NCBI GenBank assembly: GCA_902779125.1
Contig: CACZAC010000002.1
Span: 86,766 to 150,765 of the forward strand
Direction: 5' to 3'
Origin: an uncultured Bacteroidales bacterium
GTDB lineage: Bacteria > Bacteroidota > Bacteroidia > Bacteroidales > Muribaculaceae
Length of the DNA: 64,000 nt
Shown here piece by piece: positions 1 to 31,869 of this stretch. Made by a program: the position numbers and the translations under genes. The notes beneath the pieces were generated by a model. It had not been told where the DNA came from. It did no database searches and worked only from the letters and a program-made list of their open reading frames with translations. Position 1 is the stretch's first letter, and each line of letters begins with the position of its first letter.

Positions 1-3000
1 TTTCACATAGTCGATTTGACCATCAACGATGCTGGTCTTGTCAATCGAGACATTGCCCTGGTCTTTAGCCCAAAGCTGGTTGATACCCTTCTGCGGATTG
101 ACAATAGCCCAAACACCAATCAGCTCATCGCTCACGAGTACCTGCTTATTGCCCTCAACAGGCTCAACGGGCGTCTCGTTAGACTCGATATAAGCCAGCG
201 GGGTTGCTTCCAGACCATACAGGTAAACATCCTCGTTGAGCGAGGCATCACTGTAGGTCGAGAATACACGGCCCTTAGCATAGTAGCGCAGGGTGCGGTT
301 GGTACCGTCATAGTTGAACATGATGGTAGCGGGATTGCCGTTATCCTGGGCGACGCTCACGCTGGCCTCGCTGTAAGTCGAGGTGGCGGCAGCAGTCTTC
401 AGGTTGGCATTGTCGTTGGTGGTAACTACCAGATAGCCGGTGTTGTCACCGTTGATGTTCTTGAAGTAGTAGCGGCCGGCATTGGCTTTCTCCAGCACAA
501 ACTGGGCAAGCTCGTCGTTGCCGTAAACTTTCTCCTTGGTGTCATCAACAAACATCACACCGACCGAACCGCGGTTGTTCTCGTTCTGAGTAGTGCTCAG
601 ACCCATATTGGCCTGCTTGTTGACAATGACATAGACATTGCCCTCCTGGGGCGCGGTCTTCACCAGGTCAAACACTACACTGTTCTTCTTGACGAAGGTG
701 TAGGTGCAGGTCACGGGATTGCTCCACAGGGTCGTGATTACATTGCCCTGATCGTCCTTCACCTCCAGATAGGAGATGGCGGTCACGGTCGTGGTCTCGG
801 TAATCGCATCATCACCCGTCAAGGTAATCTCGCCGTCGGTGACAACGGTGCCGTTCTCCAGGGTGGGAACTTCACCATTGAGCGTGTAGAGCGTTACGGT
901 GCCAGGATCACTCTCCTCGTTGGTCGAGATGGTCACATCTTCACTCTCATTACCGGTGACAATCTCAATCACTTGGCTCTCAGGTGTGATGACGGGATCC
1001 TTGATACCGATAAACTTGTAGTCGGCCTCAACGGTTTCTGAATGCATCATGTCGCCATAGGTCGAAGGCAACTCGGCATAGGCCTCGACATGGGTGTCGC
1101 TGTTGACAATGAACGGGCCAATGAACTCTGCCCAGTCGTCCATGTCATCGGTCTTGTAGTAGATGGTGGGCGTAACAGCGCCATTCCACTCGGGAGTCTC
1201 GACGGTGATGTCAACCACCTGCTGGGTGGTGCACTGGTCGTTAGACGCGGGCGTGATTACGGGCTTGTAAACCCACAGGAAGTCAAGAGGACAAATCTCG
1301 AAGGCCGGATCGTAAGGCTTGTAGTAGTCCACGATGCCATAGACATCGAAGGTTGCGCCCTTAGCCTGCTTCTCATCAAAGAAGGCCTGGTCATAGTCAC
1401 CCAGATGGTTGATGACATCATTGTGGTTATTATAAGAGCAGGTACCTGCACTCCAGCGATAGAACTTGTCATAGTAGTAAGCATCAGCGGTTCCGTCATT
1501 AATCAGACCAGTGTGCTTAGGATCACTAGCACTATAGTCCTGAACATTGCGCAGTGTTGTATTGCGCAAGTGGACGTAATGTCCCCAAGAGTTGCTGCCA
1601 TCGGCAGTACCAGCGACAATCACAGCATTGGTAATCTCATCGGGAAGGATTTCACTATTACCCAGAGAGGTAGCCGGCCATGAGGTTACCTCATGGTTAC
1701 CAGTACCCAGCTGGATATGGAAGTTGTTCTCCCAAATATTGGTCACACCTGCAATTTCACTACCATCAAGCCAGTCACCCATCTCGAAGATGTGGTAGCC
1801 ATGAGTGTCGCGCTTACCGAAGTAAACACAGGCATAGTCGGTGTTGTCACGCAGATAGCAGTACTCTGCAAACTGGCCATTGTTGGTATAGGTTGAGTGG
1901 TAAACCACCTGAACAGGATTGACAAATGTAGCAGAAACACCGGTAGGACAATTGTCATTGAAGTCCTTCAGGTTCTGGTAAACATGACTGCCGCCCTGGA
2001 AAGGCAGGATGGTGTAGTAACCCTCGCTGATAGTGCTGGCATGGTCACCGATGTAGGCAATCGCCTTCACGCGGTAACTGTTGCCCACGGTCATCTGGTA
2101 GGGTTCACTGTAGTGAGTCGAGGACTTCGTGGGATCGCTCACACTGCTGGGCGGGGTTGTTCCGCTCACCTGCTCAATCACGTAGTAGATATCGGCGTTG
2201 GCAGTGTTGGTAGCAATCTCCAGCGTCTGGTCACCGTAGTAGGTGCCGCTGTAACCGCCATCTTTACCCTCCAGCGGCGAGAAGAACGGTGCATTAACAT
2301 TGATTACCTTCTCGGCATAGGTATAGCTGGCAACATCAACAGCACTGGGCACGTTATCATCGTTATAGGCAATGGCCTTAACGGTAGCCTGGTCACCCAA
2401 ACTAGCGAAGGTCAACTCGAACGGGCCTTCATACAGGGTGCCGTTCGACGAGCTGGGCTCGCTGCCATCGATGGTGTAATAAACAGTTGCATCAACAGGG
2501 TTGCAGCCGATGACAACCGTCAGAGTGGGATTATAAACCTCACGCGATGCGGGACGAATGGTCACCTTAGGAGCAATCCAGGTGTAAACCACCTCAGCGG
2601 GTGCACTCACATTGTCCTCGTCATCGACAGCGACAGCCTTGATGGTCGTGGGACCGTTAGCGTTATAGTGTACCGCAAACGTTCCCTCATACGGGGTGCT
2701 GCTGCTCGTAGGATCACTGCCATCAGTGGTGTAATAGACGGTGGTACCGTCCTCAGCAGTAATAGTCACATCCTGATGCTCGGTATACTCACCAGTAGCG
2801 GGAGTAATCTCAGGAGCCATGACTGCAGGATGCAGCACGTAGAGATAGGCAGAAACGCCAGTGTTATTCGTATAGAGACGGAACGGACCACGGTCGGCTA
2901 ACTGGGTATTGTAACGTAATTCACGTTCACAGGTAGTCAAGCCATAACCACTGCCAGAGCTAGGAGTTTGCCATTCATAGCCACTCGAGGCGTTATTATA

Positions 3001-6000
3001 AAAGCCCACACCTGTATCATCATTGGTTGACTCCAAATAACCTTGGGTGGCTTTCAGCGTCCAATTATCCTTAGTGCCACCAAGCGTGAAGACTATAGCA
3101 TCGGTGTTGGCAATGTCAACAACTTGGTTCTGAGTTCGCCATGCCACATTAACACCAGAGCCAAAGTAATTATTGTTGCTTGAATATGTACCATTGAATG
3201 CAACAGGAGTAGCGCCCTCATAGACGATGACGTACTTCTCGCCAGCTTTAATCTGGCTCTCGTCGGTCACCTTCTCGTAGAGGGTCTCACCCTTGGGTTG
3301 ACGGGTGTAAGTCTCAGAAACCGTTGCACTGGTATAGGTGTTGCCACCGGTAGTAAGAGTGGCGCGAGCCATCACGGTAACGGAACTGTTCACCTGTCCA
3401 ATAGTGATAGTAATGCCATCAGTATAGGTCTGCCAAGTCGTACCGTTATCAAGGCTATACTCAATGGTTGCACCAGCCACATTTGCAGTGATGGTGACAG
3501 GCTCGCTCATGACACTGCCCACAAAGTTGCAGCTAGCGGGGCTGATGGTCACGGTCAGCGGCTCACGGGTAGCGTTGACGGTAACGGTAACATCGGCAGT
3601 GCCAGCACTCGACAGCGTGATGCTTGCCGTCTCGTCGGCACCCTGTCCATTATAGGTAACAGTCACCTCAACATTACCGGCAAGAGCAGCCTCTTTGCTG
3701 ATGCTGTTGGTCGAGAGCGAGAAGCCCTTGGCCTGGTCCTCGGCGCTCAACGTCAGCGTCACACCCTCGCTCAAGTTGCGGCCACCCACAGTAAAGGTGT
3801 TGCTACCTTGAGCTTCTCCAGCAGCCAACTCGATGGAAACAGTAGTCGGATTAGCTAAAATAGCCGGAGTCGAGGACTCCTTATAAATATAGACGTATTG
3901 CTGAGTGGCTTTATAGCAAGCAAAACGATGCTGGTTATTGTTATTATTAAACTGGAGATACCTCTCGTTATAGGAATTTGACTGGATAGCAAACTTATTG
4001 CCTAAGTCATTACCATCGGCGTCCTTATCGCTGATAGTCCATGTGTGGTTAGGATTGTCATAATACAGATTATTGGCATCATGTGCTGTAAGAACACCTT
4101 GACTGGTCAACAGCTTCCAATTGTCAGATTGACCTATAAGGGTAACAGGAGCCATTGCTTCTTTCGAAGTGATGATACCGTTAGTCTCGGAAACACCTTC
4201 AACAGCAACACCAATATTATTTGATACGGGACCCATGACGATGGCAGTCTCAGCATCATCATTCGACTTATAGACAATCAGATAAGTCTGGCCATGCACC
4301 AGGTCATTGATGTCAGTCAGCATCTCGTAGTCCTTGGCAACAAAAGGCGGAGTAATCAGATACTCTGCCGAGGCGACAGAGCTGGTCACGCCGTTGCTCA
4401 CGGCCACAGCCTTCAAAGTAACAGACTCACTGATACTGATGGCATTGCCGTCATAGAGGGTGCCGTTGTTCGCACTGGGTTCACTGCCGTCGGTGGTGTA
4501 ATAGATAGCAGCACCCGGGGTAGCGCAAGTGATGGTCACCTCCTGAGTGCCCGAATAGGTACCCGATGCAAGAGAGATGACAGGTGCGTGTACCAGTGCC
4601 GAAATCGTGAACGTGTTATTATTCGGGTTGACTTGAACGGTATATTCACCAGGATTCAAGTGAATCGTAGCTGCATTAGATCCCGTATCGGCAGCATCAA
4701 TCTGTACTGATTGACCAGTATAGTCGGTCTGTCCTTGCAGATACCACGGTCCATTTGAATCGGGACCGAACTTGGTTGATACAGCAGTAGATTCATCACC
4801 TTGACTCTTAGAGAAGAACATCCAGGAATCAGAGCCGCCATTTTCTCCCACGGCTGTGATATTCACCGAATAAGTCCCATCAGTGGTGTTTCTCGTCATC
4901 GCAACACCATTGGAGAAATCAAAATTGTTGATATGGTCAGCATCAACACCGATGTTACCAAAGAGGTAGATGGGACCCGTGTACAGGTAGTTCACGTCAA
5001 CATTGGTGGTCACGTTACCACTGGCAAGCCTAATGACGCCACTTTCACTCAGGGCATTACCATTATAGGTCACGGTAACAGTGCCATTAACAGCACCATT
5101 ATAGCTGACGAAGCCCCAGCCTTGGTCACCAGAAACGGTTCTCGAGAAGTTTCCAGACATCACATCCACACCCACGTTGCTAGGCAGGTTGGCACCAGTC
5201 ACCGTAAAGTCACCAGTCCTACCGCCACTCGTATTATCATCATTGATGTTAAGCGGGTTGGGCGATGCTGTCAACGACGGCGTGAGGTTGATGGTATAGG
5301 TTGCAGTAACCTGTTCACTGTCCTCATAGTCGGCCAACGTAGCCCAAGCCACGATAGTTGCGAACGAGTTGACATTAAGAGTAATGGGAGAAGTTCCGGT
5401 CTGCTCAGGACCACCATTATAAGTATAGTGAATCGTCGCGCCATCGGTAGGACACGAAATCGTCACCTCCTGTACCGAAGGATATTCACCAGGAGCAGGC
5501 GAGAACACAGGCGCCTCTACCGTAGGAGTAGTAGGTTCCTTAAAATAAATAGTGATGTATTGTATCTGTGCATTGTGGCTACTGGTAATCTTTAAAGAAT
5601 ATATATTACCTGCTGACTGATATTGATCAGCAATCAAGTATGTATTTGTACCAGTGGATCCAGTTGTGGCTGTACTGACTGCATTATCATCAACAAAAAC
5701 ATTCATTACTACTGATGAAGAAGCACCAGAATTACCCTCCACTACAATCTTCTCAACATCTTTGTCAAATGCTGGGAACGTAATAGATGCTCCAGTTTTG
5801 CCAATCAACAAGCACTGGCTATTATAATAACGGTATCCACCATTAGCTGCTAGAATAATGTCATAAGTTCCGTCGTTGTATGTGACTGTCGTTGTCGTAG
5901 AACTAGTGGGCAAAGCAGGTGTCCAATGGTCGTTTTCTCTAAAGTCGATAACGACATAGTCGGAGGGACTGCTAGGATTGATGGTGAATGACTGGCTGGT

Positions 6001-29645: not shown

Positions 29646-30017
29646 TTACTGTGCAGCCGGCTGCTGGGGTGCCATATTCTCACGAGGACGCGCCAGCAGT
29701 TCAAAGGAATCTACGTAAATCTCTGTGATATAGCGCTTCACCTTGTTAGCGTCTTCCCATGAACGGGTGCGCAATCTACCTTCCAGGTAAATCTGGGTAC
29801 CTTTGCGGATATAACGTTCGGCCACCTCGGCATTTTTGCCCCACATGACAATGTTGTGCCACTCGGTGCGTTCGGGCACCTGCACACCATTAGCATTGGT
29901 GTAAGCACGGTCTGAAGTAGCTAGTGTGAACGATGCAACGGGCTGATTTTGTGCAACATAACGCACATCCGGGTCTCGGCCCACACGGCCCAGCAGAATG
30001 ACTTTATTCACTGACAT
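29646..30017 (-). CDS. ssb: Single-stranded DNA-binding protein
   Basis: 123 residues. The OB fold is typical: MSVNKVILLGRVGRDPDVRY, ASFTLATSDRAY, RTEWHNIVMWGKNAEVAERY and GTQIYLEGRLRTRSWED. SSB coats single strands during replication and repair. The tail after the OB fold is very short (RENMAPQQPAAQ) and lacks the acidic DDDIPF-type tip that recruits partner proteins, so this may be a second SSB or a lineage-typical short form. It stands alone, with manC convergent. Confidence 0.93.
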   Translation of the reverse strand: MSVNKVILLGRVGRDPDVRYVAQNQPVASFTLATSDRAYTNANGVQVPERTEWHNIVMWGKNAEVAERYIRKGTQIYLEGRLRTRSWEDANKVKRYITEIYVDSFELLARPRENMAPQQPAAQ

Positions 30018-30071: not shown

Positions 30072-31031
30072 TTAACACCCTGTGCCCTTCAGGGCAAGTC
30101 CCACGCGCTCATGCAGTCCATACATCAGGTTCATCGCATGTACCGCAGTGCCGGCACTGCCCTTGAGCAGGACGTCCATCACTGCATGGATGGAGAGATA
30201 GCCGCTATGGTCATCCTTGTCAATGCTGATGAGGCACTTGTTGGTGTTCTCGACTTCGGCAGTGGCAGCAGGACGGTCAACCATGAACACAAAGTTATGG
30301 TCATCGTAGTATTGCTCGTAGAGCTGATGCACCATCTCGGCATCGATACCGCACTTGAAACGTGCATCGACAGTGAGTGTGCGACGTTCAGCCAGCGGTG
30401 TAACCGTCAAGGTAACGGGCTGGTCAAAGCTCGACTGGCATTGAAGCAAAGCGCAGACAATCTCCTGTTGCTGGTCATCAGCCCAAGCGGTGGTATCCAA
30501 ACCGTCAACTGTCTTGCCCTCATTGGTCATGGCACTGGTGCCCAACGCCACTTTCAGTTCAATAGGGCTGTTCAAGAGCAGGTTACGAGCCATCGGCATC
30601 AGAGCGAGCAACGATGCCGTTGCAACATCGCCAGGCACAGTCACCAGCCGCGTGTCATGCACGAGCACACGTCGTTGCATCTCAGAGAGGCCATATTTCC
30701 ATGACGCTGCGCTGTCGCCATAATCCAGATTGTGAATGCCACTCATATCGATGACCGACAAACCCTCGGGCAAGTCCGTTGCCGACAGCCATTCGACGGC
30801 CTCAACGCGTTTGCCACACAAGTAAATCAAATCAACATCATCGAGCGCACCCTGAGGTCCTGTCCTAAGGTCACATTCACCCACCAGACCTGACACGATG
30901 CTATCTAACCGCATACCTACAGGAGCGCTGCCTGTCACCCATTTCAACTCCACATCGGGATGGTTGATGAGGACACGTACCAGCTCAGCGGCACGCATGT
31001 TGTCACACCCAATAATGCCTACTTTAATCAT
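30072..31031 (-). CDS. ArgC-like protein lacking catalytic residues
   Basis: 319 residues from the ATG at 31031, which overlaps the argR end by 8 bases. The overall fold is that of N-acetyl-gamma-glutamyl-phosphate reductase: MIKVGIIG start, ELVRVLINHPDVELKWV, and a C-terminus NTNKCLISIDK...DVLLKGSAGTAVHAMNLMYG that matches Bacteroidales ArgC closely. Yet the key residues are gone: the NPGC catalytic cysteine is Asp in VPGDVATASLL (codon 30629-30627), the EHxHxPEI histidine region reads WADDQQQEI, and the nucleotide loop GxxGYxxGEL reads GCDNMRAAEL. The frame is intact over its full length, so this is probably a pseudoenzyme or the remnant of an arginine operon and not a simple frameshifted pseudogene. 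Reductase activity is not expected. Confidence 0.85.
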   Translation of the reverse strand: MIKVGIIGCDNMRAAELVRVLINHPDVELKWVTGSAPVGMRLDSIVSGLVGECDLRTGPQGALDDVDLIYLCGKRVEAVEWLSATDLPEGLSVIDMSGIHNLDYGDSAASWKYGLSEMQRRVLVHDTRLVTVPGDVATASLLALMPMARNLLLNSPIELKVALGTSAMTNEGKTVDGLDTTAWADDQQQEIVCALLQCQSSFDQPVTLTVTPLAERRTLTVDARFKCGIDAEMVHQLYEQYYDDHNFVFMVDRPAATAEVENTNKCLISIDKDDHSGYLSIHAVMDVLLKGSAGTAVHAMNLMYGLHERVGLALKGTGC

Positions 31032-31596
31032 CAACAAGAGGCGTTTGAGCCGAGCCGAGGACATGGGGCGAGTTCTTGGGCATGAACTGCTCAAAGACGG
31101 CCCTGGCCTCGTCGTGGGTCACTCCCTCAGCAAGGATAGCAACCACTGTATCGGCGCCAGCAATCGTTCCAAGCACCTCGGGAGGACGACTCATGTCAAT
31201 GTCGTATGCCAAACCGGGAGCATAGCCGTTGCGCGTCTTGATGACAGCCAGATTGCCCGAGAACGTCACCGACACAAGACCCACCTGCTTAGCAGCATGG
31301 GCATCGGTCTGGCGCATACTCAACAACCTGTCTTGCAACTGATTGCTGTCAGGAATGATATACATGTAAGTGTTACGGTCGGTAGCGACCTTAGAAATCT
31401 TCAAGGCCTTCAAGTCGCGGGACAATGTAGCCTGAGTCACATTGATATTGTGCTCACGCAACATGTCGGCCAACTCACTTTGGCTACCAATGCAATTCGT
31501 CTTGATCAGATCAGTGATCAATTGTAAACGGTCACGTTTTCTTTTCACGAGCGCTTTCTTTTTTCTTGGTTTTTTTGTTAATGTTGTAGTCTCCAT
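31024..31596 (-). CDS. argR: Arginine repressor
   Basis: 190 residues from the ATG at 31596; the frame extends upstream without family features. A basic N-terminal tail of about 25 residues (KKPRKKKALVKRKRDR) precedes the ArgR winged helix (QSELADMLREHNINVTQATLSRDLKALKISK), followed by the C-terminal arginine-binding/hexamer domain (NGYAPGLAYDIDMSRPPEVLGTIAGADTV). The GTIAGADT segment that binds arginine is intact. It overlaps the ArgC-like gene by 8 bases. In other Bacteroidales argR heads a full arginine operon; here only the inactive ArgC homologue follows. Confidence 0.94.
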   Translation of the reverse strand: METTTLTKKPRKKKALVKRKRDRLQLITDLIKTNCIGSQSELADMLREHNINVTQATLSRDLKALKISKVATDRNTYMYIIPDSNQLQDRLLSMRQTDAHAAKQVGLVSVTFSGNLAVIKTRNGYAPGLAYDIDMSRPPEVLGTIAGADTVVAILAEGVTHDEARAVFEQFMPKNSPHVLGSAQTPLVDD

Positions 31597-31662: not shown

Positions 31663-31869
31663 CATATTTATAGACTTTTTTCAATGAAAATTCAATATTT
31701 TATTCGTTATCCTTCAATTATTCATCATATTCAGTAAGTGTATTTCACCCTACACATTATTTATAATTATAATTACCTATCAAAAAGTGAGAGGGCCAGA
31801 TTTGGTGCAAATTCTTATCAGTAATAGTGACACCTCTGTCTTGGAAAAACACTTTTTAGTCTAAAATAG

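Follow-up and report, generated by a model that had tools for sequence, protein, structure and literature searches.

An ArgC homologue without reductase residues, retained beside argR in a Muribaculaceae genome, is probably a conserved pseudoenzyme

Analysis of the window (the whole stretch of DNA analysed, 64,000 nucleotides) revealed a homologue of ArgC, the N-acyl-gamma-glutamyl-phosphate reductase, on the reverse strand directly behind an arginine repressor homologue. The homologue is named ArgC* here and its gene argC*. ArgC homologues from the window's genus were divided by identity and motif into the groups near (38 sequences, including the window), far (33 sequences) and intact (9 sequences). 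The features of the locus are listed below, together with the number of sequences in each group that share them.

29646..30017, minus strand: ssb, the downstream neighbour on the same strand; near-group loci keep this order
30072..31031, minus strand: ArgC homologue (ArgC*), 319 aa, without catalytic residues
30381..30383, minus strand: codon of Arg217, kept (38/38 near, 27/33 far, 9/9 intact)
30462..30464, minus strand: codon of the retained Glu190, which corresponds to Glu in the (H)PEI segment (38/38 near, 26/33 far, 9/9 intact)
30471..30473, minus strand: codon of Gln187 at the catalytic His position (Gln in 38/38 near-group sequences, His in 9/9 intact-motif ArgCs of the genus)
30627..30629, minus strand: codon of Asp135, which aligns with the catalytic Cys of NPGC (Cys in 0/38 near-group sequences)
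30981..31019, minus strand: former glycine-rich nucleotide loop, residues 5-17, placed by sequence comparison
31024..31596, minus strand: argR, encoding an arginine repressor homologue; the gene lies directly upstream of argC* and shares 8 bp with it
31681..31694, minus strand: ARG-box-like sequence TGAATTTTCATTGA upstream of argR (weak evidence)

The argC* frame runs uninterrupted from the ATG at 31031 to the stop at 30074-30072, as the preliminary description of this locus had stated. Both domains of the semialdehyde dehydrogenase fold were detected above their Pfam cut-offs, PF01118 with 40.6 bits (cut-off 26) and PF22698 with 44.9 bits (cut-off 27), which by sequence places ArgC* in this fold. 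The sequence also matched solved ArgC structures, with 1xyg as the best match (E 1.6e-18). Against TIGR01850, the ArgC equivalog model, ArgC* reached 136.6 bits, below the cut-off of 233.6 bits; three intact relatives scored 272-304 bits.

We take NPGC and HxH(x)PEI to be the catalytic motifs of ArgC. Aspartic acid is found in place of the cysteine of NPGC, exactly at the codon where the preliminary description had placed it, and the amino acids N/S/D/T/I/K/A/G occur at this position among the 38 near-group sequences. The histidine segment had likewise been described as replaced, and Gln187 indeed occupies the position of the second histidine of HxH. The nucleotide loop reads GIIGCDNMRAAEL in ArgC*, compared with the consensus GIIGGAGYTAGEL of the intact-motif ArgCs of the genus, in agreement with the broken glycine-rich loop noticed earlier. 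Gln187, Glu190 and Arg217 are invariant in the near group (n = 38, window included); in the far group Glu190 is missing from 7/33 sequences and Arg217 from 6/33. When the near, far and intact sets were pooled, Glu190, Arg217, YGLxE, TNKC and the KGxxGxAVH of the last helix were, among others, the residues kept in at least 90% of the sequences. On the basis of the known fold we assume that the glutamic acid and the arginine are candidates for substrate contacts, Arg217 presumably belonging to the substrate pocket, and their retention would make a ligand-binding, non-catalytic protein plausible.

The genome to which the window belongs (3.35 Mb, 97 contigs, 90.7% complete) was searched for the rest of the pathway. 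No second ArgC was found in this 90.7% complete assembly, which answers the check proposed earlier for an intact argC elsewhere; the only other PF01118 match was asd, encoding aspartate-semialdehyde dehydrogenase, and it was rejected as a candidate. No match was found for argG or argH in the same assembly, and the surrounding pathway is thus lost, as the earlier suggestion of a decaying arginine operon had implied. These and the following absence calls rest on partly incomplete assemblies, and the related genomes are not independent of each other.

Analysis of 101 genomes of the window's genus revealed an ArgC homologue, degenerate or intact, in 94 genomes and no match in the remaining seven, whereas argG was matched in 12 and argH above the cut-off in 10. 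A total of 80 distinct ArgC sequences, part of the 94 homologues, were fetched: 71 contain neither the cysteine nor the histidine, and nine contain both. All nine come from argG-bearing genomes. Five argG-bearing genomes (G001, G005, G024, G040 and G066) also carry a degenerate copy.

Selection on the gene was estimated by the Nei-Gojobori method on pairs of at least 70% identity, of which 43 passed and 40 are listed, three of these being intact ArgCs and one more having an infinite ArgC dS. For the listed degenerate pairs with finite dS, dN/dS ranged from 0.07 to 0.21, with many dS values above 1; between the window and its nearest relative (L081) dN/dS was 0.19 at a dS of 0.52. The gene is under purifying selection. 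The constraint is moderate because ArgC* evolves faster than argR, whose dN was the lower one in all listed degenerate pairs except L057-L054. Disrupted frames in relatives were rare. In a single genome, G062 (L341), the ArgC match is split into two parts that lie in different frames; an argR match adjoins it, and the split is probably a frameshift or an assembly error. Stops were flagged in four more of the 94 matched genomes (G007, G014, G022 and G028); in two of these the stop lies within the last 10 codons (L033, L036), and in the other two the frame is open over the ArgC match (L037, L342). One reference list omits two sequences that have late stops.

These results bear on the possibility that argC* is a pseudogene slowly eroding after loss of the arginine operon, which the preliminary description had offered as the simpler alternative and which dN/dS near 1 or broken frames in relatives would have marked. 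The absence of argG and argH from most genomes, the faster evolution of ArgC* relative to argR, the far-group forms as short as 288 aa, the frame-changed copy of G062 and the seven genomes without a match are in its favour. However, the dN/dS range contradicts it, as do the frames, which are open in nearly all genus genomes with a match, and the retention of ArgC in 131/138 sampled argG-less genomes of the family; we regard decay as very improbable. Judged from its residues and substitution pattern, ArgC* would instead be a pseudoenzyme, both catalytic residues being missing from a gene that selection preserves, and on this point the earlier proposal appears to be right. With its chemistry apparently dead and selection acting on the protein, ArgC* probably has another job, such as sensing or regulation.

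The position of the gene points to ArgR. The ATG of argC* lies inside the tail of argR (ATGATTAA), which ends at 31024, and this 8-bp overlap supports the coupled translation with ArgR suggested earlier. The same spacing of -8 occurs in 25/38 near-group loci, including the window. At distances from overlapping to 117 bp, argR is found directly upstream of argC* in 38/38 near-group and 32/33 far-group loci of the genus. Inspection by eye also found the order argR-argC*-ssb in L337 and L338 of another genus and the pair argR-argC* in L331, from a genome outside the family. Two genomes of the genus without a detected ArgC, G087 and G021 (L333 and L334), show by eye a diverged argR followed by an sbcD-like gene. 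A GNAT-ArgG fusion appears to be present in G004, G041, G044 and L051 (about 2991-4799): the frame that contains argG has about 605 aa and begins like the GNAT gene that adjoins argG at other loci.

Two further properties of the argR region were considered. With the ARG-box consensus that we assumed for scoring, a match of at least 8/10 was present in 33/38 upstream regions compared with 28% of mononucleotide shuffles; the signal is weak and its positions vary, and an ARG-box regulon was not adopted as an explanation. The motif GADT was found in ArgR of the window and of its relatives, including genomes with an intact argC operon, at the site of GDDT (the DD form), which we take to be the arginine-binding motif. 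A loss of arginine sensing in ArgR that co-evolved with argC* was rejected, since GADT also occurs in the ArgRs adjoining intact argC (L051, L052) and is therefore not linked to ArgC degeneration.

A total of 297 genomes from 30 genera of the family were compared, and ArgC was found in 287, argG in 163, ArgR in 190 and ArgB in 193. Four argG matches with E values of 3e-4 to 8e-4 were treated as absent, which reduces argG to 159. In this sample, the argG-less genomes that keep ArgC comprise 34/37 from the window's genus and 97/101 from other genera. Among these 101 genomes of other genera, ArgB was found in five and ArgR in 47, and neither ArgR nor ArgB was detected in 50 of the 97 that keep ArgC. 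ArgR is therefore excluded as an obligate partner of ArgC* across the family: in about half of the argG-less genomes of other genera ArgC was found without ArgR, which excludes a retained function that always needs ArgR.

An ArgR co-factor role was put forward in the preliminary description, with ArgC* binding ArgR and tuning its DNA binding, thereby replacing or supplementing arginine as co-effector. This cannot hold as a general role, because neither ArgR nor ArgB was detected in 50/97 argG-less genomes of other genera that keep ArgC. Within the window's genus the near-universal adjacency of argR makes such a partnership possible, and the argR-argC* arrangements in L337, L338 and L331 show the adjacency in other lineages; however, an ancestral operon that had lost GNAT and argG would look the same. 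Taken as an explanation of ArgC* as a whole, the co-factor role is doubtful.

Motifs were tabulated for 35 ArgC loci outside the genus, 22 from argG-less and 13 from argG-bearing genomes, chosen among the listed best matches to a profile of degenerate ArgCs, a choice that favours degenerate forms. All 22 ArgCs from argG-less genomes have the cysteine or the histidine replaced. Among the 13 from argG-bearing genomes, the seven with adjoining argG are intact, whereas the six whose fetched stretch contains no argG are degenerate. The replacements are lineage-specific: cysteine is exchanged for serine or alanine with the histidine kept, histidine for glutamine with the cysteine kept, or both residues are changed. 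The ArgC of Duncaniella muris DSM 103720 (L193) is of the second kind, with the cysteine present and glutamine instead of histidine. Four further argG-less loci of the family (L332, L336-L338) contain an ArgC that looks degenerate by eye, and G223 (L340) has two ArgCs, a degenerate one adjoining a gltX-like gene and an intact one within an arginine operon recognised by eye. The degenerate copy of L340 belongs to the lineage with kept cysteine and His to Gln exchange, in which the loop is largely intact, and it scored 251 bits against the ArgC cut-off of 233.6. Residual or altered activity is possible in this lineage because its loop is mostly intact and the cut-off is passed.

This lineage, which exchanges the histidine alone and keeps the cysteine with most of the loop, and the newly fixed near-group residues Cys9, Trp183, Gln187 and Cys198 would fit an enzyme that has come to catalyse a different reaction with new residues. 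Against this stand the variability of residue 135 in the near group, the broken nucleotide loop of the same group and the fact that the residues lost differ between lineages, and we consider a new enzymatic activity improbable. The preferred reading remains a non-enzymatic protein.

In the rest of the order, ArgC with at least 99 bits (TIGR01850) was found in at least 7/90 argG-less genomes, a lower bound because the scores of very degenerate ArgCs (L337, 78 bits) overlap the range of asd; G414, whose argG is truncated at a contig end, was counted as argG-bearing in this tally. In one of these seven, G378 (L331), argR is followed immediately by a degenerate ArgC. ArgCs of 424-434 bits occur in six further genomes of the order that do not belong to the family (G370, G396, G407, G459, G486 and G500; L301-L306), and no strong argG match was found in these six; they possibly represent an ornithine-only pathway or another use of ArgC.

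The origin of the degenerate proteins was analysed with an ArgC tree of 88 rows from which the catalytic columns were left out. The separation of degenerate and intact ArgCs by one branch, that is by one change, with support 81 (not starred) would be consistent with a single old ArgC2 clade that was functionally distinct before catalysis was lost, rather than with repeated conversion of argC, and so would the presence of both kinds in one genome (L340; G001, G024, G040). However, four changes resulted when 18 long-branch or fast rows were left out, and a tree that groups L051 and L059, two intact ArgCs of the genus, with its degenerate ArgCs was not rejected (p 0.48). Degenerate copies also often adjoin argR or gltX, the site of the intact argC operon elsewhere (L172). 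On these data both one ancient paralogue and several conversions are possible, and we lean away from the paralogue. The loss of different residues in different lineages suggests that cysteine and histidine were lost separately.

A second altered pathway protein was found in the same genome. Its ArgB homologue lies at L092:4462-5232 on contig C16, flanked by asd and, by eye, a prfB-like gene; at this locus related genomes such as G004 carry an intact argB. Analysis of the motifs revealed KVSGK, FSGN, NETDA and DWFNNK, compared with KVGGK, HGGG, NTNAD and GMIPK or alike in intact relatives, motifs whose roles in the kinase we presume. The protein scored 115.9 bits against a cut-off of 151.3, and an intact ArgB scored 188.9. 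The median dN/dS of near-group ArgB was 0.07 (398 pairs with dS 0.3-2), and an ArgB homologue, degenerate or intact, is present in 89/101 genomes of the genus. The joint retention of ArgC* and this altered ArgB (ArgB*) suggests that two pathway pseudoenzymes persist in the window's genus. ArgB* was dropped as an obligate partner of ArgC* because ArgC of other genera mostly occurs without ArgB when argG is absent.

When three partial matches are counted, a match of the ornithine carbamoyltransferase type was found in 77/89 argG-less compared with 1/12 argG-bearing genus genomes. In L230 the ornithine carbamoyltransferase gene has arcC on one side and arcA, truncated at the end of the locus, on the other, forming an arginine deiminase operon, and in L227 it accompanies a carbamate-kinase-like gene. 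The lifestyle appears to have changed from arginine synthesis to arginine degradation. Among the 38 near-group genomes, including that of the window, none has a second, ATCase-like PF00185 match and eight have no PF00185 match at all, which suggests either that pyrB is missing or that the assemblies are incomplete.

Overall, we consider it likely that the gene encodes a conserved ArgC-derived pseudoenzyme with a non-catalytic role that probably consists in ligand sensing or scaffolding and, in some lineages, is tied to ArgR. The following course of events is proposed. The ancestors of most of the genus probably had an arginine operon argR-GNAT-argG-argC from which argG disappeared. ArgC would then have lost its reductase residues, namely the cysteine and the histidine and, in the near group of the window, the nucleotide loop; purifying selection would have continued to act on the fold and the C-terminal domain, and probably on part of the substrate pocket. 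Most likely ArgC* binds a metabolite of the glutamate family or related to arginine, or else a protein partner, without catalysis, and in the bound state it may report on amino-acid metabolism or scaffold it. ArgR would be the best candidate partner where argR adjoins, as in the window.

A wider reading is favoured by a small margin over its negation: ArgC may have a second, non-enzymatic and selected function throughout the family, with ArgC the usual last survivor among the arginine enzymes tested, and in the window's genus a dead ArgB-like kinase would have joined it as a pair of retained pseudoenzymes, one of them beside ArgR. Such a function would be visible because several lineages lost the reductase residues in differing ways and yet retained the protein. 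When a pathway is lost, its enzymes usually disappear as well, as ArgB does, being undetected in 96/101 argG-less genomes of other genera in which ArgC is present in 97/101. Retention of the fold, with its chemistry removed in various ways, suggests that a textbook enzyme has a hidden function in a common family of gut bacteria. The finding also concerns annotators and metabolic modellers, since a degenerate ArgC that passes the cut-off, such as the 251-bit copy of L340, would be read as arginine biosynthesis.

One article (PMC12508126) describes beetle symbionts in which ArgR accompanies an incomplete arginine pathway; it is not about ArgC, and the word argC does not occur in it. In the open-licence literature searched, no description of an ArgC pseudoenzyme or of a Muribaculaceae ArgC was found. 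Compared with solved ArgC examples (TIGR01850; 1xyg, 2cvo, 1vkn), ArgC* shares full-length homology, both domains and the YGLxE, TNKC and KGxxGxAV residues, but it lacks the catalytic cysteine and histidine and the glycine loop, scores below the equivalog cut-off and comes from a genome in which argG and argH were not found. Yeast Arg5,6 is an ArgB-ArgC polyprotein with reported DNA binding and an effect on gene expression. It resembles ArgC* as an ArgB/ArgC protein with a role besides catalysis; however, Arg5,6 keeps its enzymatic activities, whereas ArgC* is a separate protein without the catalytic residues. Sensor pseudoenzymes of the Gal3 type derive from a pathway enzyme, have lost catalysis and are kept for sensing. 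By analogy, ArgC* may be a further case of a pathway enzyme fold retained without catalysis, with the difference that its signalling partner and its ligand are candidates.
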